From a virus, in the IMG/VR virus record IMGVR_UViG_3300018065_000011, positions 1 to 64,000 of that record: a stretch of 64,000 bases of DNA; one strand, written 5' to 3'. Shown one piece after another: positions 19,727 to 60,905 of this stretch (positions within the stretch are counted from its first letter, which is position 1; each line of letters opens with the position of its first letter). The translations under genes were made by a program, and so were the position numbers. The notes beneath the pieces are model-generated. The model worked only from the letters and a program-made list of their open reading frames with translations. It had not been told where the DNA came from and did no database searches.

Positions 19727-19846
19727 CGGTTTCCTCCTCGTGGACGACATTGTCAGGATCGCGCTGTCAGGCATGGGGGGTCAATGTTTTTCTGGCAGGG
19801 CGAGATCGCCCTTGTGGCGCCGTGAAACGCAGATTTGTGGGGCTTT

Positions 19847-37668: not shown

Positions 37669-37742
37669 AGGCCCGTAGCTCAGTCGGTTAGAGCGTGGGG
37701 CTCATAACCCCGTGGTCCTCGGTTCAATCCCGAGCGGGCCTA
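37669..37742 (+). tRNA. tRNA-Met (CAT)
   Basis: Acceptor AGGCCCG/CGGGCCT, D arm GCTC/GAGC, anticodon arm TGGGG CTCATAA CCCCG, T arm CTCGGTTCAATCCCGAG. CAT could also be Ile after lysidine modification. Confidence 0.9.
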
Positions 37743-37757
37743 CGAAAAGCATTCAAG

Positions 37758-37831
37758 GAGGACGTATCGGCCCAGTCTCCTAAACTGGCAAGCCGTAATG
37801 GATGATGGGGGTTCGAGTCCCTCCGTCCTCA
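37758..37831 (+). tRNA. tRNA-like element, CCT anticodon loop, no D arm
   Basis: Acceptor GAGGACG/CGTCCTC and T arm GGGGGTTCGAGTCCCTC are good and the total length (74) is normal. The only internal hairpin is CCAGT CTCCTAA ACTGG, placed where the D arm should be, extended by CGGC/GCCG. Eighteen bases then replace the usual anticodon arm. Possibly a rearranged tRNA-Arg. Confidence 0.4.
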
Positions 37832-37836
37832 CTATA

Positions 37837-37864
37837 CCGAGGTTCAAATCCTGCCGGGGACGCC
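37837..37864 (+). tRNA. 3' fragment of a tRNA gene
   Basis: GAGGTTCAAATCCTGCC followed by GGGGACGCCA: a T arm and acceptor 3' strand with encoded CCA but no 5' half. Remnant of a lost tRNA or a recombination/attachment site. Confidence 0.45.
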
Positions 37865-37874
37865 AAGGAGAAAC

Positions 37875-38147
37875 ATGAAGAGACGCACGTTCATAGGCAG
37901 CCTGTTCGCGGCCCTTGGAGCGATCTGCTTCCCTTGGAAGAGACGCAAGCGCAAGAAGTCTCTAGAGGAGATCAAGCAGGAGATCCTCATGGAGTACTTT
38001 CGTTCTCCTCAAGCACGAGGGAAACTGGCTGTAGGTATGGCTTTCCCTCTCCGAATGCGTCGCAACTATGCAGAGATTGGCAAGAGGATCTTTCTTGTGG
38101 AGGAATTGCCATCGGGCGCTCTCCCCTTCTACGACAGGGAGCCATGA
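37875..38147 (+). CDS. hypothetical protein with hydrophobic N-terminus
   Basis: A 90-residue protein starting MKRRTFIGSLFAALGAICF (a signal-like segment after Arg-Arg), then a very basic stretch (KRRKRKKS), then EILMEYFRSPQARGKLAVGM and IFLVEELPSGALPFYDRE. The last block faintly recalls N-terminal parts of some phage structural proteins. ATGA-coupled to the next gene. Confidence 0.5.
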   Translation: MKRRTFIGSLFAALGAICFPWKRRKRKKSLEEIKQEILMEYFRSPQARGKLAVGMAFPLRMRRNYAEIGKRIFLVEELPSGALPFYDREP

Positions 38148-38422
38148 AAGAGCACTGTACCAGACATCTCCGAAAAGGGATCAAGAAGCCAGCCGTGTAC
38201 ATCCTCGAAGGCGGGCTATGCGAGACTTGTTGGATCGATTGGTGGATCGAAGGACTGCACATCGAGAACCCGAGAGAACGAGCCAAAGTACGTCGAGAGA
38301 CAAAAGCTGCCTTAAGGAGAAGACGCAAGCGAAAGGCCGGGAAGCTCAGATGGTTAGAGCACCATCCCGACACGGTGGGGGTCCTCGGTTCGATCCCGAG
38401 CCCGGTCACCACGTTCCTGTAG
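38144..38422 (+). CDS. Cys-containing basic protein overlapping a tRNA
   Basis: 92 residues. Residues 1-62 look normal (KPAVYILEGGLCETCWIDWW, then RRRRKRK). The frame then runs straight through the tRNA-Val gene before reaching a stop, so the last ~30 codons are tRNA sequence. tRNA processing would cut the mRNA. Confidence 0.45.
   Translation: MKEHCTRHLRKGIKKPAVYILEGGLCETCWIDWWIEGLHIENPRERAKVRRETKAALRRRRKRKAGKLRWLEHHPDTVGVLGSIPSPVTTFL
38335..38408 (+). tRNA. tRNA-Val (GAC)
   Basis: Acceptor GGCCGGG/CCCGGTC, D arm GCTC/GAGC, anticodon arm CCATC CCGACAC GGTGG, T arm CTCGGTTCGATCCCGAG. Position 33 is C instead of U. Confidence 0.75.
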
Positions 38423-38487
38423 CTCAGCCCGGACAGAGCGTCACGTTCCGAACGTGAGGGGCGTAGGTTCAAATCCTACCAGGAACG
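38413..38487 (+). tRNA. tRNA-Arg (CCG)
   Basis: Acceptor GTTCCTG/CAGGAAC, anticodon arm TCACG TTCCGAA CGTGA, T arm GTAGGTTCAAATCCTAC. All arms complete. Confidence 0.9.
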
Positions 38488-38490
38488 CAA

Positions 38491-39323: not shown

Positions 39324-39540
39324 AGAAGTGCTACGACAGCGCGTTCAAGGTGCCATCCGCGAGGAGATTCGGTTGCGCATAGTATGGGAAAATGCGGTAG
39401 AGCGTGCCAAGACAGGCGCTCCTGGTGCGCGGCATGCCGAAGAGGACGCTGCGTATGCCCTCGGCCTAGCTCGCAAACAAGTGAACGAGCAAATGCGGCA
39501 GTTGATGGAGCACTGTCGCCGGAGGTACGGATACGGCTAG
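39301..39540 (+). CDS. hypothetical helical protein
   Basis: A 79-residue helical protein (TEEVLRQRVQGAIREEIRLR). Tail overlap of 4 bases with speE on the other strand. Confidence 0.5.
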   Translation: MKQTLTTEEVLRQRVQGAIREEIRLRIVWENAVERAKTGAPGARHAEEDAAYALGLARKQVNEQMRQLMEHCRRRYGYG

Positions 39541-40469
39541 TAGAGGTTTCTGATCTCAGGCGCAGCCGTGAACAGGCGGCAATGCGTTCCCGGTGTATAG
39601 TACCGTAACTGCAAACCGTTGCGAGCTAGTGCATGGTGGACGGGAGGATCCGAGATGCGCGTCGTGTTCTGCTGACAGGCGAACGTCGTTGTCCACGTTG
39701 CGTTGAAGGACGGGATGTACTCGTAAGCGGTTCGCGTCACACGGAAGGCTGAGCGGATGGTCTTGATGATTTCGACGTGGTGAGCATCGAGGGGACCGCT
39801 CAGGCGGATGCCTCCTGTCTGTGCGGCAAAGATGCCTCTGTCACGCAGTTTCCCGCCAATGGCCGAGAAGAAGTCCTTGGTGAACAACCGCTCAGAGAGA
39901 TTGTTGCTGTCGCCCGTGTCATCGTAGGGCTCAGTGAGATCGGAGATGATCACGTTCCAAGTCTGGTTCTCGTTGAGCACAGTGGACGCGTCGGAGATGC
40001 GGACGGTAACGCGCTCGTCCTCGAATGCGCCGTGTGTCCATTCGGGAAAGAGCACCTTGAAGGTCTCGATCATGTCTTCATCGATCTCGACCAAGCAGAC
40101 TTCTTTCACGTCGGGCCACTTGAGCACTTCGCGGAGAGCACAGCCATCGCCGCCACCGAGGATGAGCACACGCCCGATGTTCTGGGCCATGACCATGGCC
40201 GGATGCACGAGCATGTCGTGGTAGATATACTCGTCACTCTCCGCAACCTGGATGCGCCCGTCTAGAATCAGAGTGCGTCCGAGGTCCGCGAAGTCTGCTA
40301 GCTGGATGAGTTGGTACTCGCTTTGCTTTTCGTAGAGGAGATCGCGGATACCCCACAGAGCGAAGAAGGATTCGCTCTCTGCCTCAAGAAACCAGCGCGG
40401 CTGTCGAGTCTCCAGCAAGTGCGGCAGAGATTCCAACGGACTAAAGATTCGGTTGGCTGGTATCACCAA
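39537..40469 (-). CDS. speE: spermidine synthase (polyamine aminopropyltransferase)
   Basis: A 310-residue protein. The SAM-fold core shows VLILGGGDGCALREVL (GGGDG nucleotide loop), CLVEIDEDMIETFK (acidic residue contacting decarboxylated SAM), RVTVRISDAS and VIISDLTEPYDD (catalytic Asp region). It transfers an aminopropyl group from decarboxylated SAM to putrescine. TTG start (or GTG 40466) chosen for the AAGGAGGG upstream. Its partner speD is 22 kb away, so both pathway enzymes are carried. Slightly longer at the N-terminus than typical SpeE. Confidence 0.9.
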   Translation of the reverse strand: MVIPANRIFSPLESLPHLLETRQPRWFLEAESESFFALWGIRDLLYEKQSEYQLIQLADFADLGRTLILDGRIQVAESDEYIYHDMLVHPAMVMAQNIGRVLILGGGDGCALREVLKWPDVKEVCLVEIDEDMIETFKVLFPEWTHGAFEDERVTVRISDASTVLNENQTWNVIISDLTEPYDDTGDSNNLSERLFTKDFFSAIGGKLRDRGIFAAQTGGIRLSGPLDAHHVEIIKTIRSAFRVTRTAYEYIPSFNATWTTTFACQQNTTRISDPPVHHALARNGLQLRYYTPGTHCRLFTAAPEIRNLY

Positions 40470-47317: not shown

Positions 47318-48064
47318 ATGGCACGCAAAGCAACAGCACTTACCAAGCCCGATCTCGACGTTCTTGCACTTCCCGAGGATGTCACCCTTCTTCCCGACAA
47401 CAGCACGCACCAGCATCGCTTCGACTTCACATCATCGAGCGGTCGCGTCTATCGGGTCGCGCAGCGGAAGTACAACCCCAAGACTGGCAAGGGCGGCTGG
47501 TGGGCTTGCTCGTGCCCGAGTTTCATTCACGGCCGCAAGGGCTCGAAGGACTGCAAGCACCTTCGTGACTTCGGTCTCCCCGGCAATCACGAGCGTTTCG
47601 AGATTGGCGAGATCTCCGTGGGCGCACTCGACGGCGAAGTGGGCGCAACCACGATGAGGGACTCCGAGCGGGCCGGTCGCAAGTCGGCACAGAAGACTCA
47701 ACTTCGCGCAATCGCTGGCGGCGAAGGCAAGGTCGTGGACCCGTCGAGCGGCGCGGCAGATCTCAGCCTGCTCATCACCGATCCAAACACGTACTCACTT
47801 CGGGATGAGATCAAGAAGCTGGGTGGCCGACCCCGTTACCAAAATAGCAAGTTTCAGGGCTGGCTCATGCCGAACGCAGCGGCCAAGGCCAAGGTCGAGG
47901 CCCTTTTGGCAGAGTCGTCCAAGGCGGCTGCCCCGAAGGCTGAATCCAAGGCACTCCCGGCTGTGAAGCCGACCAACGTCGAAATGAAGAACGGCCAGAT
48001 CGTCGTGACCTTCGATGCGAAGGACCAGGCGGCGGTGTTCGCCCTCCTGAGCAAGATCTCCTAG
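47318..48064 (+). CDS. SWIM-like zinc-finger protein
   Basis: A 248-residue protein. Residues 30-85 (VYRVAQRKYNPKTGKGGWWA, CSCPSF...DCKHL) have the CxCxnCxH order of a SWIM zinc finger, which binds DNA or proteins. The C-terminal half is Lys/Ala-rich with a beta tail (GQIVVTFDAKDQAAVFALLS). Its own promoter and a following terminator suggest a single-gene, possibly abundant transcript. Confidence 0.6.
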   Translation: MARKATALTKPDLDVLALPEDVTLLPDNSTHQHRFDFTSSSGRVYRVAQRKYNPKTGKGGWWACSCPSFIHGRKGSKDCKHLRDFGLPGNHERFEIGEISVGALDGEVGATTMRDSERAGRKSAQKTQLRAIAGGEGKVVDPSSGAADLSLLITDPNTYSLRDEIKKLGGRPRYQNSKFQGWLMPNAAAKAKVEALLAESSKAAAPKAESKALPAVKPTNVEMKNGQIVVTFDAKDQAAVFALLSKIS

Positions 48065-48082
48065 CGTCTGTGCTAACCTCCC

Positions 48083-48126
48083 CCCGGCCCGAGTCAATGG
48101 TGGCTCAGGCCGGGTTAACTTTTTCT
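48083..48126 (+). terminator. rho-independent terminator
   Basis: CCCGGCCcGAG, a loop, CTCaGGCCGGG, then TTAACTTTTT. Ends the SWIM-like gene; its T-run doubles as the first box of the rnpB promoter. Confidence 0.75.
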
Positions 48127-48143
48127 CTGATCTCGCGTATATG
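48114..48143 (+). promoter_or_regulatory. 30-bp promoter motif before rnpB
   Basis: GTTAACTTTT, 10 bases, CGCGTATATG. Confidence 0.7.
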
Positions 48144-48285
48144 ACTCCCGCAGGCACACTAGCTCGTGGTAGCTGTCAGGACCCAATGCTTGGAGGTCGC
48201 AAAGCTGCGGCGCGACAACGCAAGGCGATAGCAGGCTTGTTTGGGCTGGAGCTTGCTTCCTGATCGTTTCCGCTGTACACCTGGG
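48144..48285 (+). other. leader between promoter and RNase P RNA
   Basis: About 140 transcribed bases without a good reading frame. Contains GTCGCaaagctgcGGCGCGAC and other possible stems. May be a 5' leader removed in processing, or a separate small RNA. Confidence 0.35.
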
Positions 48286-48632
48286 GATCGGTCGAGAGGA
48301 TGAGGAGATCGCAGCCGCAAGGCTGAGGAAAGTCCGGGCTCCGTAGAGCAGCGTGCTTGGGAAATCCAAGTCGGGGCGACCCGCAGGAAAGTGCCGCAGA
48401 AAGCAAACCGCCGATGGCCTTCGGGCACAGGCAAGGGTGAAAGGGTGGGGTAAGAGCCCACCGGGTTCCTGGCGACAGGGATCGCATGGTAAACCCCACG
48501 CGGAGCAAGACAAACAGAGAGCGCTGAAGTTGCTCGCCTAGCTCTCGGGTTGTCGCAAAGATGAATGATCGCCACCTGGCAAGGGCAACCGACCCAGGGA
48601 CAGAACCCGGCTTACGACCCTCTCGGCCGATT
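48286..48632 (+). ncRNA. rnpB: RNase P RNA (bacterial type A)
   Basis: About 347 bases. Diagnostic conserved blocks are in order: GAGGAAAGTCCGGGCTCC (CR-I), AGAAAGCAAACCGCC, GGCAAGGGTGAAAGGGTG then GGGGTAAGAGCCCACC, GGTAAACCCCACG with AGCAAGACAAACAGAGAG, and near the 3' end CAGAACCCGGCTTAC. The ends pair as helix P1 (GATCGGTCGAGAGG with CCTCTCGGCCGATT). A TTATTTT tract follows. This is the catalytic subunit that trims tRNA 5' leaders; no gene for the protein subunit is visible. Confidence 0.95.
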
Positions 48633-48726: not shown

Positions 48727-49197
48727 CTAGGACCCGGTGCTTCCGAATCCTCCCTTGCCTCGCTCTGTTTCGGGCAACTCTTCAACTTGACGAACACCCC
48801 TCGGGGTGGCGACGGCAGCGATGACAAGCTGAGCGATGCGGTCTCCATGCTTGACTGAAAACCCGACGTTGCTGTGGTTGATCAGAATGACGCCGACTTC
48901 TCCTCTGTAGTCCGCGTCGATTGTTCCTGGCGCATTGAGCACTGTGATCTTGTGCTTGAGCGCTAACCCTGACCGCGGGCGTATTTGTGCTTCAAAGCCA
49001 GGCGGGAGAGCCATGGCTATTCCGGTGGGTATGAGTCCTGTCGCGCCCGGAGAGATGATGCAATCCTCGCAGCAGGCGAACAAGTCTAGCCCGGCCGCAT
49101 TCGGGCTCATTCGTTTCGGGAGAATGGCTGCGTCGTTGAGCTTCTTGAAAAGGACATTCCAAGAGCCGTCATCGTTGTAGAATTCGCTACCGAGCAT
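48727..49197 (-). CDS. dut: dUTP diphosphatase (trimeric dUTPase)
   Basis: A 156-residue protein with the family motifs in order: AAGLDLFA (1), PRSGLALK (2), GTIDADYRGEV (3, catalytic Asp), GDRIAQLVI (4), RGKGGFGSTG (5). Hydrolyses dUTP to dUMP, keeping uracil out of DNA. I chose ATG 49197; the upstream 12 codons contain a promoter-like GTATATAC. Confidence 0.95.
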   Translation of the reverse strand: MLGSEFYNDDGSWNVLFKKLNDAAILPKRMSPNAAGLDLFACCEDCIISPGATGLIPTGIAMALPPGFEAQIRPRSGLALKHKITVLNAPGTIDADYRGEVGVILINHSNVGFSVKHGDRIAQLVIAAVATPRGVRQVEELPETERGKGGFGSTGS

Positions 49198-49235: not shown

Positions 49236-49559
49236 ATGCGGCAGCCTCTATTTCAGGCCAAGCTGGCGCGCGTTCCTACGCTGCTCACGGCTCAGCGGTT
49301 TCTGGCTGATCTCTTCGACTACGAACCGGATGAGATGTTTGCAGCGTTGATGTCTGGCGTGGGAGCGCAGCCGTTGCATTCTTGGCCTGGCTGGGTCCCA
49401 AGGGTCTCGGGTTGGGAGAGTGTTGAGGTTGCCTACGATGAGTTTCGGTTTGTGAGAGCCGACCTGGAGATTCGGGTAGCCTATGATCGTGGTGAACGGA
49501 CCTGGACGATCGTGGGTACTCTGTTTGGGGATTTGCCGTGGGTGGTAGTGGATGGCTAG
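49236..49559 (+). CDS. hypothetical protein
   Basis: A 107-residue Trp-rich alpha/beta protein (FRFVRADLEIRVAYDRGERT), divergent from dut; overlaps the next gene by 8 bases. Confidence 0.55.
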   Translation: MRQPLFQAKLARVPTLLTAQRFLADLFDYEPDEMFAALMSGVGAQPLHSWPGWVPRVSGWESVEVAYDEFRFVRADLEIRVAYDRGERTWTIVGTLFGDLPWVVVDG

Positions 49560-50067
49560 GCCGACCAAAATCATCTCTGGAGGGCAAACGGGTGTTGATC
49601 GTGGCGCGCTCGATGCCGCCATGGATTTGGGCATCGACCATGGTGGCTGGTGTCCGCCAGAACGATACGCCGAGGACGGCCGCATCCCTGAGCACTACGA
49701 CGTAGAGGAAGTGTCAACAGACCACTTCATCGACCACGGATACGACTATGGAGACTACAGGGAGCACTACCGTCTCAGGACGATGCTGAATGTCAAGACT
49801 GCGGACGCGACCCTGATCTTGACACAGGGGCCAGGTAAGCTGACTCCGGGCACGCGATTGACGCTCACCTTCGTGCGGGGCGCAGGAAAGCCATGCCTCA
49901 TGCTCCCCTTCGCAGACGAGGATGCCCCGTGGCGTATCAAAACTTGGGTCGAGGATCAACAGATTACGTGCCTGAATGTCGCTGGCCCCCGAGAGAGCAA
50001 GATTTCGGGCATTCAGGAGAAGACGCGGAGTCTTCTGATGAAGGCTTTTTCTGGCTCCGGCGGGTAG
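49552..50067 (+). CDS. putative molybdenum-carrier / SLOG-family protein
   Basis: A 171-residue protein: KIISGGQTGVDRGALDAAMD (nucleotide-binding GGQTGxD loop), GGWCPPERYAEDGRIPEHY and TADATLILTQGPGKLTPGT. These match the putative molybdenum carrier / lysine-decarboxylase-like Rossmann family. The fold binds nucleotide-derived ligands; the true substrate is unknown. Phages often carry single copies. Confidence 0.8.
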   Translation: MARPTKIISGGQTGVDRGALDAAMDLGIDHGGWCPPERYAEDGRIPEHYDVEEVSTDHFIDHGYDYGDYREHYRLRTMLNVKTADATLILTQGPGKLTPGTRLTLTFVRGAGKPCLMLPFADEDAPWRIKTWVEDQQITCLNVAGPRESKISGIQEKTRSLLMKAFSGSGG

Positions 50068-50884: not shown

Positions 50885-51469
50885 ATGGTGAAACGAGCAG
50901 CCTCACTCCTGTTGTGCGCGTGTGCGGTGACGCAAACTCCCTCCACGGCGATTCCCGAGTACAATCGCAAGGAGTGGAAGCACTGGATCGATGAAGATCG
51001 AGACTGCCAGGACACGCGACAGGAAGTGCTGATTGCTGAGTCCGAGATTCCCGTCACCTTCAAGACCGAGCGTCAGTGCCGGGTCATCTCGGGTCGCTGG
51101 GTTGATCCCTACACAAACAAGATGATCACTGATCCGGGGTTGCTCGACATCGATCACGTGGTTGCGCTCCGCGATGCGCATGATTCGGGCGGCCATGCTT
51201 GGGACGCTGACAAGAAACGAGACTTCGCGAACGATCTCTTCGATCCCGCTCATCTGATGGCCGTCGATCGTTCGGTCAATCGCAGTAAAGGTTCCCGAGG
51301 CCCCGATGCATGGTTACCACCAAACCCAGCTTACCGGTGCGAGTACATCCGAAGCTGGGTGGCGATCATGGGGCAGTGGGATCTGGACATGACGATTCCC
51401 GAAGCCACGATGATTGAGTACATGCTCCGCGTCTGTGATTCAGGTTGTGTGCCTCCGTTGCCGCAGTAG
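50885..51469 (+). CDS. secreted HNH nuclease, GmrSD C-terminal/DUF1524-like
   Basis: A 194-residue protein. Signal-like start (VKRAASLLLCACAV), then YNRKEWKHWIDEDRDCQDTR, LDIDHVVALRDAHDSGG (His-Asp-His core) and FANDLFDPAHLMAVDRSVN, NRSKGS. This pattern is the HNH family related to the C-terminal part of GmrSD enzymes, often found as secreted nucleases. May degrade host or competitor DNA outside the cytoplasm. Confidence 0.8.
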   Translation: MVKRAASLLLCACAVTQTPSTAIPEYNRKEWKHWIDEDRDCQDTRQEVLIAESEIPVTFKTERQCRVISGRWVDPYTNKMITDPGLLDIDHVVALRDAHDSGGHAWDADKKRDFANDLFDPAHLMAVDRSVNRSKGSRGPDAWLPPNPAYRCEYIRSWVAIMGQWDLDMTIPEATMIEYMLRVCDSGCVPPLPQ

Positions 51470-52639: not shown

Positions 52640-52843
52640 ATGTCCAAGATCAAGGTGATTCGCGTCAGCGCCACCGAATTCGAGACCGAAGATGGCAAGG
52701 TCTTCCCCCACCCGATCCCCTTCCAAGACGGCAAAGTCCCGTCCGTCGAAGAATTCCAGGCGATCCACGACCAGTGGCGGGAAATCTTTCAATCCCAAGG
52801 ACTCCTCCCAGGAGCGCCTCCTGGGCCCGGGAAAGACCGCTGA
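52640..52843 (+). CDS. hypothetical protein at the start of the IS607 element
   Basis: A 67-residue protein (IKVIRVSATEFETEDGKVFP). A strong AAAGGAG site precedes ATG 52640 and CTATACA lies about 20 bases further up. Its end overlaps the start of tnpA in another frame, so tnpA may be translated by coupling or frameshift. Confidence 0.5.
   Translation: MSKIKVIRVSATEFETEDGKVFPHPIPFQDGKVPSVEEFQAIHDQWREIFQSQGLLPGAPPGPGKDR
52803..52828 (+). promoter_or_regulatory. hairpin over the tnpA start
   Basis: CCCAGGAG, CGC loop, CTCCTGGG: an 8-bp perfect stem that contains both the AGGAG site and the CTG start candidate. It could limit transposase production. Confidence 0.6.
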
Positions 52844-53438
52844 GCTTCTCGGCGTCCACATCAGCACTCTCCGCCGATGGGACGAAGACGGCACCCTGGA
52901 GGCCGTCAGGACACCCGGAGGATGGCGAAAATACCGCCTCTCCGACATCGAAAGGTTCCAAGGCCGAGAATCTCCTGAACGTGAAAAACAGGAGATTCGG
53001 GCGGTCGCCTATTGCCGGGTCAGCAGCCACGACCAGAAACAAAAAGGAGACCTCGAACGCCAGTCAGATCGCGTCGTCGCCCACGTCGCCCGCCAAGGCT
53101 ACAAGCTGGTGGACGCACTCGAAGAAGTCGGCTCGGGAATGTCGGATACGAGACCGAAGCTCCATCGGCTGTTCAAGCTAGTGGGCGATCACGAGGTCGA
53201 TGTCGTGGTCGTCGAGCACAAGGACCGCCTGTGCCGGTTCAATTTCGGTTTCCTCCAAGCGTACTTCCAGAGCCACGGGGTCGAGGTGGAGTGGATCGAG
53301 GATGTGCTCGGTAGAAGCTACGAGGAGGAACTTGTGGAGGACATGCTGTCGTTGATGTCGAGTTTCTCGGCTCGCATCTACGGCAAGCGCAGCGCGGAGA
53401 ACCGTCGCAAGAAACGAAAGAAGGAGAAAGCAGCATGA
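52821..53438 (+). CDS. tnpA: IS607-family serine recombinase TnpA
   Basis: A 205-residue protein. N-terminal MerR-type HTH (GKTAELLGVHISTLRRWDED, GGWRKYRL), then the resolvase core AVAYCRVSSHDQKQKGDLER with the catalytic Ser in RVSS, EVGSGMSDTRPKLHRLFKLV and VVVVEHKDRLCRFNF. HTH before the catalytic domain is diagnostic for IS607. No ATG, GTG or TTG fits; CTG 52821 with AGGAG is the best candidate, or translation enters from the upstream orf. Confidence 0.85.
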   Translation: MGPGKTAELLGVHISTLRRWDEDGTLEAVRTPGGWRKYRLSDIERFQGRESPEREKQEIRAVAYCRVSSHDQKQKGDLERQSDRVVAHVARQGYKLVDALEEVGSGMSDTRPKLHRLFKLVGDHEVDVVVVEHKDRLCRFNFGFLQAYFQSHGVEVEWIEDVLGRSYEEELVEDMLSLMSSFSARIYGKRSAENRRKKRKKEKAA

Positions 53439-53950: not shown

Positions 53951-54162
53951 CAATGACCACCTTCAAAGATCTTGATGACGTGCAGCTTCTTCAGGCGCTC
54001 CAAGATGCCGAGAACGAGGCACAACGTATTCGGCAGGAGATCCGATTCCGTGGTGTTTCAAGATACGGCTCGCTGTTTGATGCTGTCGGAGACGCCACCC
54101 GTGAAGCACTTGACTGGCCATCCATGATGGAGCGGTCTCGGAAATCTGAACTGGACCGATGA
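53947..54162 (+). CDS. second passenger gene between tnpA and tnpB
   Basis: A 71-residue helical protein (LDDVQLLQALQDAENEAQRI, RQEIRFRG). ATGA overlaps on both sides. Function unknown. Confidence 0.55.
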   Translation: MTMTTFKDLDDVQLLQALQDAENEAQRIRQEIRFRGVSRYGSLFDAVGDATREALDWPSMMERSRKSELDR

Positions 54163-55586
54163 AGAAGTCTCGTCACCTCTACCTCCACCCGGAGACCAAT
54201 CCGGGCAAGATTGCCGCCCTGGAGGCCCTTCACGTCGAGTACGTCAGGTACGTGCGCATCTGCGTGCAGATCATGCTCGACAACCAGAGGCTCTCCCTCA
54301 AACGGTCGGAGAAGCAAGTCTTCTTCCCGAAGGCCGAGAACCTCACCAGCCAGATCCAGAAGAACGCCCGAGACCACGCCATCCAAATCGTGAGTACGTG
54401 GGCCAAGGCCACCTACGAGCGTGCCGTCAAGAAGCACCTCACCCGAGCACACAGGTTCGGCCAACTTTCCCAGGACGAACGACACGCCCTCTGCACGGTT
54501 GGAAAGCACCTGATCTCAGTGCCTTGGAAGCACGTCACCCAGGAGACCATCGACGCCTACTGGGCACTCCTGCTCGACCCAGAGGTCTCTGGTAACCAGC
54601 CACGGGTGTCCGAACGCATCCCGATGCGGATGTCGGAGAACACATGCACACTGGCCGACACTGACGAGGCCATCCACGCTCCCATGTGGATCAAGATTTC
54701 CACGCTGGTCAGCCGGAAAGTCGTCTGGCTTCCGCTCGCAGGGAATCCCTACGTCAAGTCGGCCAACGACGTGTCGAAGGGAGTCCACGCAAGGAAAGAC
54801 AAGCGTGGGCGCTGGAGGTTCGAGGTTGTTGAACGCAAGGAGTGGATCGTTCCCGAACTTCAACCCGATGCGCCCAGGATCGGTGTCGATGTCGGCCTGA
54901 ACGTCGTGGCCGCCACCTCGGATGGCCGGACGTTCGGAGCAAGTCTCAAACCCAAGTTCGACCGCCTCTACGAGCGCGTCAGGAACCTTCGTGCGAACCG
55001 TCAACGACAGGGTTTCAAGGAGAACAGCCCTCGGCTCAACCGGCTCGAAGACAAACTCACCAGGATGGTAAAGACGATCACCGGGGAGGTGGCCAACAGG
55101 CTCATCAAGAGCGCACCCGAAGGCACGGTTTTCGTGATCGAAGACTTGGACCTGCGTGGGTGCCGTGGTCAGAAGAGGTTCGCGTACCGGGCCCTGGCCC
55201 ACAGCTTGGAGACGAAAGCGCCCACCTTGAAGGTGAATCCGGCGTACACGTCTCAGACTTGCCCTTCCTGTGGTTACGTCTCTCGACGTAACCGATCAGG
55301 AACCGATTTCGTCTGCCGCTCATGTGGCAGGCGTTCTCATGCCGACGTGGTGGGAGGGATCAACCTGCTGAGACGTTCTCAGGACGAACAGGTTGACCTC
55401 AACGATCACCATCGAGACGTGAGGGAGTTGCTGCGAAAACGATACCGGGCCCGTAGGGCCGGGGACAGTTCCGCAGGACTCTGCCGAAAGGCACCCGCGC
55501 CTGAACCGTCAGGCCGGAGGCTCACTACCGGAGTATCTCCCCCGAGGAGAGGACGGCACAGCCTCGAATCCGATGCTTACCTTTGA
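54159..55586 (+). CDS. tnpB: TnpB RNA-guided nuclease
   Basis: A 475-residue protein. RuvC motifs are intact: Asp in RIGVDVGLNVVA, Glu in VFVIEDLDLRG, Asp in RSHADVVGGINLL. A zinc finger CPSCGYV...CRSCGRR sits between motifs II and III. TnpB proteins cut DNA guided by an RNA from the element's right end. The ~80 residues after motif III are basic and low-complexity, likely because the guide-RNA gene overlaps there. Confidence 0.9.
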   Translation: MKKSRHLYLHPETNPGKIAALEALHVEYVRYVRICVQIMLDNQRLSLKRSEKQVFFPKAENLTSQIQKNARDHAIQIVSTWAKATYERAVKKHLTRAHRFGQLSQDERHALCTVGKHLISVPWKHVTQETIDAYWALLLDPEVSGNQPRVSERIPMRMSENTCTLADTDEAIHAPMWIKISTLVSRKVVWLPLAGNPYVKSANDVSKGVHARKDKRGRWRFEVVERKEWIVPELQPDAPRIGVDVGLNVVAATSDGRTFGASLKPKFDRLYERVRNLRANRQRQGFKENSPRLNRLEDKLTRMVKTITGEVANRLIKSAPEGTVFVIEDLDLRGCRGQKRFAYRALAHSLETKAPTLKVNPAYTSQTCPSCGYVSRRNRSGTDFVCRSCGRRSHADVVGGINLLRRSQDEQVDLNDHHRDVRELLRKRYRARRAGDSSAGLCRKAPAPEPSGRRLTTGVSPPRRGRHSLESDAYL

Positions 55587-57464: not shown

Positions 57465-57541
57465 CGAGGCGTAGCGCAATCTGGTAGCGCGTTCGGTTTG
57501 GGTCCGAAAGGATGCTGGTTCAAATCCAGTCGCCTCGACCA
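57465..57541 (+). tRNA. tRNA-Pro (TGG), CCA encoded
   Basis: Acceptor CGAGGCG/CGCCTCG, anticodon arm TTCGG TTTGGGT CCGAA, T arm GCTGGTTCAAATCCAGT, ACCA end. Confidence 0.92.
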
Positions 57542-57542
57542 C

Positions 57543-57621
57543 GCCCCTGTAGCTCAGTGGACTCAGAGCATCGGTCTACGGAACCGAGTTGTCGGAGGTT
57601 CGAATCCTTCCAGGGGTGCCA
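57543..57621 (+). tRNA. tRNA-Arg (ACG), CCA encoded
   Basis: Acceptor GCCCCTG/CAGGGGT, anticodon arm TCGGT CTACGGA ACCGA, T arm GGAGGTTCGAATCCTTC, GCCA end. Confidence 0.92.
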
Positions 57622-57623
57622 AA

Positions 57624-57701
57624 CGAGGCGTGGCTCAGTCTGGCTAGAGCGCCGCGTTCGGGACGCGGAGAACGGTGGTTCGAATCCACTCGCCTCGACC
57701 A
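57624..57701 (+). tRNA. tRNA-Pro (CGG), CCA encoded
   Basis: Acceptor CGAGGCG/CGCCTCG, the same as the TGG gene, anticodon arm CCGCG TTCGGGA CGCGG, ACCA end. Confidence 0.92.
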
Positions 57702-57741
57702 AAGGAGTACAAAGAGGAAGAGGAACAAAGGAACAACGAAA

Positions 57742-57816
57742 CGGGATGTGGCTCAGTCTGGTTAGAGCACCGGTCTGGGGGACCGGGGATCACTGGTTCG
57801 AATCCAGTCATCCCGA
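57742..57816 (+). tRNA. tRNA-Pro (GGG)
   Basis: Acceptor CGGGATG/CATCCCG, anticodon arm CCGGT CTGGGGG ACCGG, T arm CTGGTTCGAATCCAG. Confidence 0.92.
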
Positions 57817-57838
57817 CGAAGGTAGTGGTCGGGGTAGG

Positions 57839-58429
57839 ATGTGGGTGATGGCGTCCGACCACAAACGATGTAATCGGTGTGGGACTACAAAACCCACATC
57901 TGCTTTTTCCTACAAAACAGTCTACGGAGGTCGGTATCTCCGAACAGCTTGTCGGATCTGTGAGAACAAGAAACGAAGTGAAAGGAGGAAACGTTCGCCA
58001 AGCGCGGCGGACAAAGTAAGAGAGCAAAGACAACTGGATAGAAGATCGCGTATGCGGGCCGCAGGCATCGATTTGCCAAGATGGATCCTAACGGATTCGC
58101 GAGCGTCCGATCGAAAGAAAGGGCTTTCTAACGACTTGACCAAGTCGTTTATCGCAGAACGGATAGCGCAGGGCTGTTGCTATTGTGGCGACAAGACGAT
58201 CCGTATGACCTTGGATCGGATTGACAACAACCAAGGACACACCCGAAACAATGTTGTACCGGCCTGCATTCGATGCAACTACATCCGAAGGGACATGCCT
58301 TTCGAAGCATGGTTGCTTGTCACGGGAGCGATTCGGGAAGCTCGGAAGAGAGGGTTGTTCGGAGAATGGACTGGAAGAGCACGCAAGCCGCGGATGGCGT
58401 CAAAAGCGCGGGTGGTGAAATTCAGGTAA
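57839..58429 (+). CDS. HNH endonuclease with zinc ribbon
   Basis: A 196-residue protein. N-terminal zinc ribbon (CNRCGTTKP...CRICENKK); C-terminal HNH core (CCYCGDKTIRMTLDRIDNNQ, GHTRNNVVPACIRCN). Lies inside the tRNA array, a typical home for HNH genes. The last eight codons are the 5' end of the following tRNA-Leu gene, whose D loop supplies the stop codon, suggesting insertion beside the tRNA. Confidence 0.8.
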   Translation: MWVMASDHKRCNRCGTTKPTSAFSYKTVYGGRYLRTACRICENKKRSERRKRSPSAADKVREQRQLDRRSRMRAAGIDLPRWILTDSRASDRKKGLSNDLTKSFIAERIAQGCCYCGDKTIRMTLDRIDNNQGHTRNNVVPACIRCNYIRRDMPFEAWLLVTGAIREARKRGLFGEWTGRARKPRMASKARVVKFR

Positions 58430-58491
58430 ACACGCAGCCTTGAGGTGGCTGTGCCCAACAGGGTTTGAGGGTTCGAGTCCCTCCTCGCGCA
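58406..58491 (+). tRNA. tRNA-Leu (GAG)
   Basis: Acceptor GCGCGGG/CTCGCGC, anticodon arm CAGCC TTGAGGT GGCTG, long variable arm (class II), T arm GAGGGTTCGAGTCCCTC. Overlaps the end of the HNH gene by 24 bases. Confidence 0.88.
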
Positions 58492-58503
58492 CGAGCGACA
58501 TGA

Positions 58504-58579
58504 GCGCAGGTAGCCCAACTCAGGTAGAGGCGCTGGATTTAGGTTCCAGAGGTTGCGGGTTCGACTCCCGCCTTGCGCA
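58504..58579 (+). tRNA. tRNA-Leu (TAG) with short variable loop
   Basis: Acceptor GCGCAGG/CTTGCGC, anticodon arm CTGGA TTTAGGT TCCAG, T arm GCGGGTTCGACTCCCGC. The variable loop has only ~5 bases, whereas Leu tRNAs are normally class II. Confidence 0.85.
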
Positions 58580-58587
58580 CGGATTCT

Positions 58588-58673
58588 TGGTCGGTATGCA
58601 AGAGGTTAAAGCAAGCAGTCTGTAAAACTGCCGCGTTCGCGCTTCGTGGGTTCAAATCCCTCCCGGCCAGCCA
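58588..58673 (+). tRNA. tRNA-Tyr (GTA), CCA encoded
   Basis: Acceptor TGGTCGG/CCGGCCA, anticodon arm GCAGT CTGTAAA ACTGC, long variable arm CGCGTTCGCG, T arm GTGGGTTCAAATCCCTC. Confidence 0.92.
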
Positions 58674-58699: not shown

Positions 58700-59875
58700 A
58701 TGACACAGAAGCAGCACATCAACGTAGGAACCATCGGACACGTGGACCACGGGAAGACCACCCTCACGGCGGCCATCACGATGGTCATGGCAGCGATCAA
58801 CGGAGGCGAGATCAAGACCTTCGATCAGATCGACAAGGCGCCCGAGGAGCGTGAGCGAGGAATCACAATCAACACGGCGCACGTCGAGTACGAGTCGGAG
58901 ACTCGCAACTACGCGCACATCGACTGCCCAGGCCACGCCGACTACATCAAGAACATGATCGTCGGTGCGTCCCAGATGGACGGCGCGGTACTGCTTGTGG
59001 ACGCTTCTCAGGGGCCGCAGCACCAGACGCGTGAGCACGTTCTCCTGGCGAAACAGGTGGGCGTCTCGCACATGGTGGTGTTCATCAACAAGGTGGATAT
59101 TGCAGATCCCGAGATGCTGGAGCTTGTAGAGATGGAGGTTCAAGATGCTCTTGCCCAGATGGGCTTCGAGGACACTCCGTTTATTCGGGGCTCCGCGCTC
59201 AAGGCACTGGAGGCCGCGAGCGAGGGGAAGATGGACGATCCCGAGATCGAGCCAGTCAAGGCGCTCATCGCCGCGATGGACGAGCACCTTCCGGTGCCCA
59301 AGCGAGATCGGGAGAGTCCGTTTCTCATGCCCATCGAGAATGTCCACACGATTCCAGGCAGGGGCACGGTCGTGACAGGTCGTGTGGAGAGGGGCATTCT
59401 CACCAAGGGGCAGACGGTGGAGATCGTGGGTCGGACGGACGGGAAGCCCCTGGCTGCGGTCGTCACGGGAATCCAAGCGTTCCACAAGGACATCCCCGAG
59501 GCGGCGGCGGGTCTCAACATCGGCATGCTCCTACGTGGCATCGATCGGGATGAAGTCCTGCGTGGTCAGGTAGCAGTTGCTCCTGGCTCCTTGCTTCCTC
59601 ACGAGAAAGGCAAGGCCGAGATCTTCACACTCACAGCCAAGGAGGGTGGTCGTCACACTTCGTTCTCTGGCGGATACAGGCCACAATTCTACTTTGGCGC
59701 CACTGACGTGACTGCGGCAGTCGTGCCGGAGGATGGGAAAGTCGTCGAGCCTGGCGATCGGGCCACGGTGGACTTTGAGCTAGTGAGTCCGGTTGCTTGC
59801 GAGCCCGGCATGAGGTTCGCCATCCGCGGGGGTGGCAAGACCGTAGGTGCTGGGATGGTCACGGAGGTAGTCTAA
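58700..59875 (+). CDS. tuf: translation elongation factor EF-Tu
   Basis: A 391-residue protein, nearly full length for the family (~394). GTPase motifs: GHVDHGKT (residues 13-20), [16 protein letters not shown] (switch I), [12 protein letters not shown] (switch II), FINKVDIAD and GSALKALE. Domains 2 and 3 are complete (ETEV-like [11 protein letters not shown], then [20 protein letters not shown]) and end in a normal beta strand. Delivers aminoacyl-tRNA to the ribosome; its place within the tRNA array suits that. AGGAG upstream. Confidence 0.97.
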
Positions 59876-59902: not shown

Positions 59903-59989
59903 GCTCGAATGGCGGAATCTTCGGTAGACGCGCACGGTTCAGGTCCGTGTACCCTCACGGGTGTAGGGGTTCGAGTCCCCTTTCGAGCA
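59903..59989 (+). tRNA. tRNA-Leu (CAG)
   Basis: Acceptor GCTCGAA/TTCGAGC, anticodon arm CACGG TTCAGGT CCGTG, class II variable arm ACCCTCACGGGTGT, T arm GGGGTTCGAGTCCCC. Confidence 0.9.
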
Positions 59990-60010
59990 CTAAAGGGGTA
60001 ATGGAGGCAG

Positions 60011-60251
60011 ATGACCAAAACATGCCAAACGTGTAAATTTTGGAAGCATTCGATGGTGAAGAGAAAAAGCAAGCAAAGGACCCTGTACTTCTCCATTGGT
60101 TCTCAAAGCAAAGGACCCTGTACTTCTCCATTGGTTCTCAGAGGGTACGGGCACGCCGAACCTCCCGAGAGAGGGCTTCTCGTGGAAAATGACGAAGAGT
60201 GGGGGCATCCTCACGGGGCCTTACTTCGGCTGTGTCAACCACGAAGAGTGA
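60011..60251 (+). pseudogene. zinc-binding phage gene with duplication and frameshifts
   Basis: Starts MTKTCQTCKFWKHSMVKR. A 35-bp tandem duplication (60071-60140) and a run of A shift the reading so that only the second copy continues KGPCTSPLVLRGYGHAEPPE, LLVENDEEWG. A run of five G then breaks the frame again; with four G it would end ILTGPYFGCVNHEE at a TGA at 60251. The CxxCKFW...GxC...GC pattern is a common phage zinc protein. As read, the frame stops at 60280 inside the next tRNA. Confidence 0.55.
60071..60140 (+). repeat. 35-bp perfect tandem duplication
   Basis: Units 60071-60105 and 60106-60140 are identical (AAGCAAAGGACCCTGTACTT...). Confidence 0.95.
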
Positions 60252-60258
60252 TTATCGA

Positions 60259-60345
60259 GGCCAGGTGGCGAAGTTGGTAGACGCAGCGGATTCAAAATCC
60301 GCCGCCCTCACGGGCATGAGGGTTCGACTCCCTCCCTGGCTACCA
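60259..60345 (+). tRNA. tRNA-Leu (CAA), CCA encoded
   Basis: Acceptor GGCCAGG/CCTGGCT, anticodon arm GCGGA TTCAAAA TCCGC, class II variable arm, T arm GAGGGTTCGACTCCCTC, ACCA end. Confidence 0.9.
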
Positions 60346-60353
60346 CTCTGGTA

Positions 60354-60386
60354 GAATCGAGACATCATGGCAGTCAAGATGGACCC
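60354..60386 (+). repeat. 33-bp direct repeat, copy 1
   Basis: GAATCGAGACATCATGGCAG...; near-identical to 60562-60594. Contains the start of the gene at 60367. Confidence 0.8.
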
Positions 60387-60627
60387 ACTTGGCCGGAGGA
60401 TCATGAGGTTTTTTCGTCAGCTTGGATATGAGGACGGTACGCAGGTTGCATTGCACGCGGGGTTGCTGGGCTGCCTCGTGATTTGTGCGCTGTTCATAAA
60501 TTACTGCGGTGCCAAGCCAACGACCGAAAACGATCCAGCTTCGCGGGCGCGTATTCGACGAGAATCGAGACATCATGGCAGTCAAGACGGACCCGGCAAT
60601 TTTTCGTTGCAAGACTATCCTGAGTAA
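60367..60627 (+). CDS. small membrane protein
   Basis: An 86-residue protein with one hydrophobic segment (HAGLLGCLVICALFINYCG). GGTAGAAT upstream is a likely -10. The end reads through the second copy of the 33-bp repeat. Confidence 0.5.
   Translation: MAVKMDPLGRRIMRFFRQLGYEDGTQVALHAGLLGCLVICALFINYCGAKPTTENDPASRARIRRESRHHGSQDGPGNFSLQDYPE
60562..60594 (+). repeat. 33-bp direct repeat, copy 2
   Basis: Repeats the start region of the membrane-protein gene; opens a 30-codon frame at 60575. Confidence 0.8.
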
Positions 60628-60806
60628 CCGTCTTTTCCCCATCCAACGCCGCCAGGAGCCAACATGAAGTTGCTGACTCCCATAATTTGTTCCATCGTGC
60701 CCTTTGAGTCGCACGCGGCACACTTGGCCGGAGGAGGATCGTTCATCTTCTGGATTTCCTCGACTACGTGTCCGCATTTACGGCACTTGTAGACGTAGAT
60801 GGGCAA
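60615..60806 (-). CDS. FmdB-type zinc-ribbon protein
   Basis: A 63-residue protein: MPIYVYKCRKCGHVVEEIQK, DPPPAKCAACDS, VSNFMLAPGGVGWGKDGY. This is the FmdB/CxxC small regulatory family, widespread in bacteria and phages; likely zinc-binding. TTG start. Confidence 0.75.
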   Translation of the reverse strand: MPIYVYKCRKCGHVVEEIQKMNDPPPAKCAACDSKGTMEQIMGVSNFMLAPGGVGWGKDGYSG

Positions 60807-60826
60807 CGATCACACCATACCGAGAC

Positions 60827-60899
60827 GCGCAGGTACGCCAACGGTGAGCGGGCCGACTTAAAATCGGCTGTCCTGCGGGTTCGACTCCCGCCCTGCGTA
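60827..60899 (+). tRNA. tRNA-Leu (TAA) with short variable loop
   Basis: Acceptor GCGCAGG/CCTGCGT, anticodon arm GCCGA CTTAAAA TCGGC, T arm GCGGGTTCGACTCCCGC. Variable region only ~6 bases, like the TAG gene. Confidence 0.85.
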
Positions 60900-60905
60900 C
60901 TCCTT

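Follow-up and report, generated by a model that had tools for sequence, protein, structure and literature searches.

The window analysed here, 64,000 nt of an uncultivated viral genome (positions 1 to 64,000 of IMG/VR record IMGVR_UViG_3300018065_000011), encodes a bacterial class A RNase P RNA within a tailed phage of about 0.5 Mb. The covariance alignment confirms a full-length RNA whose catalytic core, S-domain and P1 are intact. We consider it probable that this catalytic RNA, joined to the host protein RnpA (C5), serves the 5’ end maturation of the ~49 phage pre-tRNAs during host gene shutdown, as a component of the translation kit of the phage. To our knowledge RNase P RNA has so far been a cellular and organellar gene only.

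A complete class A RNase P RNA

Using Rfam cmscan, positions 48292-48630 (plus strand) match RF00010 (RNaseP_bact_a) with 247.4 bits (E 2.3e-79; curated cut-off 100 bits) over the complete model (1-367). Scanning the whole record (372,162 bases, G000) for RF00010 shows that the gene is single-copy. In the minimum-energy fold P1 is closed by 13 bp (48287-48299 with 48619-48631). The initial annotation had proposed both a closing P1 and the presence of all type A conserved blocks, and the full-length alignment bears this out: GAGGAAAGUCCGGGCUCC, CAGAAA, AAGGGUGAAA, GGUAAGAGC, GGAGCAAG and ACAGAACCCGGCUUA are found, and the covariance alignment recovers conserved regions I-V and both P4 strands. 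J16/15 reads CUCUCGGGUUG, aligned to CGGGU, of which GGU is the part meeting the RCCA/CCA end of the tRNA. Compared with 21 cellular RNAs, 87 of the 94 near-invariant columns are retained, whereby this column set is partly biased because the cellular RNAs were retrieved by a 27-mer of block I. The span given previously for the RNA (48114-48632) has to be shortened at its 5’ side, since 48114 marks where the promoter-like site starts and the mature RNA begins at 48287. All features are summarized in the table.

Table. Location of the RNase P RNA gene, its flanks and further phage features. Positions refer to the window unless a record or locus is named.
Feature	Position	Strand	Evidence or remark
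GC-rich inverted repeat followed by T run, overlapping the promoter-like site	48082..48122	+	visible directly in the sequence
Promoter-like site, shared motif GTAAACTTtt-N-AATctCGCGTAGAGgg, core AAAC-N16-CGTA	48113..48144	+	26.5 bits, matrix from 20 other sites
5’ leader of the RNase P RNA transcript, ~140 nt	48145..48286	+	inferred from promoter and P1
RNase P RNA (rnpB), class A, catalytic and specificity domains complete	48287..48631	+	RF00010, 247.4 bits at 48292-48630; P1 13 bp
dUTPase, convergent neighbour of the RNase P RNA	48727..49197	-	PF00692, E 1e-34
tRNA-Met, tRNA-Val, tRNA-Arg; weaker tRNA match 37758-37831	37669..38488	+	probable substrates
tRNA cluster Pro, Arg, Pro, Pro, Leu, Leu, Tyr	57465..58673	+	probable substrates
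EF-Tu, complete, all three domains	58700..59875	+	PF00009 (E 3e-60), PF03144, PF03143
Further tRNA genes (Leu and others)	59903..60900	+	
Large terminase	G000:168588-170759		tailed phage (Caudoviricetes)
Portal	G000:171452-174919		tailed phage (Caudoviricetes)
Trimmed RNase P RNAs of G006/G002/G042, G011, G021, G012/G020, G045	L020, L010, L060, L139, L135, L133, L138		catalytic domain intact

The gene is part of a tailed phage genome

A second record, IMGVR_UViG_3300017971_000185 (497,194 bases, G001), shares an identical 4.5-kb stretch surrounding the RNA with the first, of which it is a circular permutation. Its ends match G000 at 222,526 and 221,171, hence the two overlapping records together cover a circle of ~498.5 kb. 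As these records close a circle, large terminase and portal are encoded and no 16S rRNA is found in the phage genome, the element is a ~0.5-Mb tailed phage and not chromosomal. The initial annotation had assigned the RNA to the element itself rather than to a stray piece of chromosome. Phage genes, circle and promoter motif agree with that assignment. The closest cellular rnpB found shows about 77% identity over 193-200 nt, and in the tree alignment the window RNA is at most 65% identical to any cellular relative found.

Other genes of the window include a spermidine synthase (39537-40466, minus strand), a circularly permuted YpsA/SLOG protein (49552-50067, plus), a GmrSD C-terminal-like nuclease domain (50885-51469, plus) and an IS607-type element with, in this order, a MerR-serine resolvase (52692-53438, plus) and TnpB (OrfB/Cas12f-like; 54159-55586, plus). 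Further phage loci encode a PARP catalytic domain (L051:12550-14247), an SNF2-type helicase (L045:14476-17946) and a phospholipase B-like protein (L046:4520-5908).

Promoter motif and leader

A 32-base motif, tGTAAACTTTtg-gcgaATctCGCGTAGAGgg, was uncovered through repeated 9-mers in the phage genome. For the matrix, 20 sites from 264 kb of the genome served as training set, with the RNase P site omitted. This left-out site scores 26.5 bits, while the maximum of 20 shuffled 264-kb sets is 18.2; the earlier proposal of a motif common to other genes is thus sustained. The 20 sites of the motif in G000 (GTAAACTTtt...CGCGTAGAGgg) include window positions 19846, 38490, 47274 and 60905, and an ATG is located shortly 3’ of many listed sites. 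The core is similar to promoters of ECF sigma factors, e.g. sigma-W. A sigma region 2 domain (PF04542) to read the motif was found in neither phage record, and no sigma70-type promoter is found.

The inverted repeat overlapping the promoter-like site probably ends the upstream gene (47318-48064); it is not called by the terminator scan. The leader (48141-48291) was also considered as a separate structured RNA, which was rejected given a fold z of -0.6 and no Rfam family.

Translation genes of the phage

Rfam predicts 49 tRNA genes in G000, located between 34.7 and 100.1 kb. ARAGORN predicts 46 that cover all 20 amino acids, with CCA encoded in 12 of them. The nearest tRNAs are 9.8 and 8.8 kb away from the RNase P RNA, which is thus outside any array and has its own promoter. 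The EF-Tu gene adjoins a tRNA cluster, and 22 other IMG/VR loci, on contigs of up to 618 kb, encode relatives with 48-71% identity. A protein of ~1510-1520 aa (174,958-179,490) contains a PF01743 nucleotidyltransferase domain of the CCA-adding or poly(A) polymerase type. No protein subunit had been noticed initially, and in agreement with this rnpA (PF00825) is absent from G000 and G001, which jointly cover the circle. The rnpA search is positive in 10 of 14 control genomes, and none of the 22 records tested has a hit above cut-off.

RNase P RNA recurs in huge phages

Two exact-pattern scans of IMG/VR checked by RF00010, together with EF-Tu and terminase relatives that were searched in addition, place an RNase P RNA scoring better than the curated cut-off in ~13 distinct records >100 kb (G000/G001, G002, G003, G004/G006, G005, G007, G008, G009, G042, G044, G046, G049 and G080). 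A terminase search by phrog_2, which covered the listed records from G000 to G009, is positive for G000/G001, G002, G003, G007 and G008. The phage status of the remaining records is based on the IMG/VR class, a lack of 16S (searched in all but G080) and tRNAs adjoining the RNA (except in G044). Just 1 of 24 additional EF-Tu or terminase relatives searched has an RNase P RNA; since most EF-Tu huge phages show no detectable copy, the host RNase P usually suffices.

Eight RNA queries against 50,697 records of named phages, an incomplete collection, matched only bacterial or unannotated fragments. The view that a viral RNase P RNA is unusual therefore holds for named phages but not for uncultivated huge phages, in which the trait recurs. 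A match in the record of the Microcystis jumbo phage MaAM05 (MW495066.1, 273,876 bases; apparently the published PhiMa05) was rejected as phage RNase P because its rnpB sits among bacterial fliM, fabI, engB and glyS (109321-121473, L171), a region that looks chromosomal. Short records with 330-bit matches at their edges were left out of the count, being probably provirus edges or chromosome. Seven short IMG/VR records (G024-G028, G035, G039) carry chromosomal-type rnpB at one end, and most of them stop ~150 bases or less past its 3’ end with the element located 5’. Proviruses may use the rnpB 3’ end as attachment site in these records.

Many phage records place the RNA inside tRNA arrays. At most array loci it is encoded on the tRNA strand, 0-6 bases from a tRNA on at least one side and often on both. 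Three distinct neighbour pairs are conserved, namely tRNA-Cys and tRNA-Gly(tcc) in G002, G004/G006 and G042, tRNA-Thr(ggt) and tRNA-Gly(gcc) in G005, G009, G010/G018 and G016, and tRNA-Leu(cag) and tRNA-Arg(tcg) in G046 and G049. Array loci with other neighbours are found in G008, G021 and G045, while the G080 RNA is located ~200 bases past tRNA-Trp and 4 kb ahead of EF-Tu. Owing to the gaps of 0-6 bases, the cut freeing the next tRNA would free the RNase P RNA too. With gaps of 0-2 bases, cleavage at the 5’ end of that tRNA would also set the RNase P RNA 3’ end.

Covariation, trimmed forms and origin

Twelve phage RNAs were aligned, with a mean column identity of 58%. At least one pair-keeping change on both sides is seen in 55 of the 74 pairs of the consensus fold. 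The EF-Tu-bearing G080 has CGGGG/CCCCG in P4 instead of CCGGG/CCCGG, i.e. both sides are changed in the catalytic, most conserved helix. Such compensatory changes, that in G080 included, argue for a folded RNA that is in use.

The specificity domain is cut down in a number of phages, giving forms of 227-280 nt. P12-P14 are missing in G002, G006, G042, G011 and G021. In G012 (227 nt) and G045 (243 nt) the RNA keeps the catalytic domain while the S-domain is mostly gone; the G020 RNA equals that of G012 in score and length.

Resolution is poor in a tree of cellular and phage RNAs (50 rows, 380 columns); phage RNAs are scattered over it, and the window RNA has no supported placement. The tree requires 6 label changes, at least 3 of them by supported branches. 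RNase P RNA was likely acquired several times by phages, a single acquisition followed by transfers back being a possible alternative.

Proposed role and alternative explanations

According to the proposed mechanism, the RNA would be transcribed from the promoter class of the phage itself, and its transcript would fold as a normal class A RNA. It would then recruit host RnpA, as the phage encodes none. The holoenzyme is predicted to raise or sustain 5’ end processing of the phage pre-tRNAs while host genes are off, so that RNase P RNA, the CCA-adding-type enzyme and EF-Tu would each be part of one translation kit. The sequences show the RNA with its promoter motif, the surrounding phage genome and its tRNAs, the presence of such RNAs in other phages and the pairing kept through compensatory changes, whereas expression, recruitment of host RnpA, catalysis and a benefit to the phage are predicted. 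P RNAs and RnpA proteins can be exchanged between distant bacteria, hence a phage RnpA would not be needed; a match between the phage RNA and the host RnpA is assumed. The initial suggestion that the RNA processes the tRNAs of the virus itself is the most likely reading, since it fits the number of tRNA genes and gains weight from phages with the RNA inside the array. Counted against it are the position outside the array in the window phage and the many EF-Tu huge phages devoid of RNase P RNA.

A bacterial rnpB placed wrongly in a viral contig by contamination or misassembly is highly improbable. Although rnpB does look chromosomal at the edges of short IMG/VR contigs and in the MaAM05 record, the locus studied here is identical over 4.5 kb in a second, circularly permuted record, its promoter motif is common to 20 other sites and no cellular match exceeds about 77% over ~200 nt. 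More serious, yet still quite unlikely, is an unused gene taken from the host, perhaps along with tRNA genes. The patchy distribution and the scattering of phage RNAs in a poorly resolved tree would agree with such a passenger, but the shared phage promoter motif, the near-complete core (87/94 columns) and the compensatory changes across divergent phage RNAs would not be expected.

An anti-host function also appears unlikely. Plentiful phage P RNA could tie up scarce RnpA and starve the host RNase P, cutting the host tRNA supply in favour of phage tRNAs. The lack of rnpA above cut-off in the 22 records, the promoter motif of its own and the trimmed S-domain forms, which might be poor at tRNA processing but still able to bind protein, are in line with this. 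A mere RnpA sponge however would not require the conserved catalytic core and pairing, and in many phages the RNA is embedded in a tRNA array that itself requires RNase P. Conservation of the catalytic core thus disfavours both sponge and passenger.

For the preferred role in tRNA maturation, a broader scenario has in our view about even chances: huge phages of several lineages may have taken over 5’ end tRNA maturation by ribozymes that RNase P cutting releases from the polycistronic tRNA transcripts of the phage, with an S-domain reshaped or trimmed in some, and that act as chimeras with host RnpA.

Comparison with known systems

With RNase P RNA in many phages, a universal ribozyme enters the viral gene pool, and phages can supply both tRNAs and the catalytic RNA maturing them. 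For biochemistry, phages provide naturally occurring RNase P RNAs whose specificity domain is cut down, while rnpB becomes unsafe as an uncritical cellular marker in metagenomes. Full-text searches limited to the open PMC literature retrieved no report of a phage-encoded RNase P RNA, and earlier notice in subscription papers or preprints is possible.

The window RNA resembles bacterial class A RNase P RNA (RF00010, rnpB) in its full-length match, conserved regions, P1, P4, the GGU of J16/15 and the S-domain. It differs by being phage-encoded under a phage promoter motif, without co-encoded rnpA and with a sequence far from the cellular relatives found. Many tRNAs, an elongation factor, a CCA-adding enzyme and a genome >200 kb are shared with the translation kits of huge phages (Al-Shayeb et al. 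2020, PMC7162821), where the main text does not mention RNase P. In a screen of ~0.5-Mb megaphages with every Rfam model (Lui et al. 2021, PMC8172020), tRNAs and one tmRNA were the sole RNAs seen. In Mycobacterium austroafricanum, extra rnpB copies with an altered specificity domain are thought to be horizontally acquired (PMC9569102). Those copies reside in bacterial genomes and a phage origin is not shown there, but they may be related to the trimmed phage forms. GOLLD and ROOL (PMC12286853) likewise are large, structured non-coding RNAs among phage tRNA genes, whereas the phage RNA described here is the known tRNA-processing ribozyme itself.
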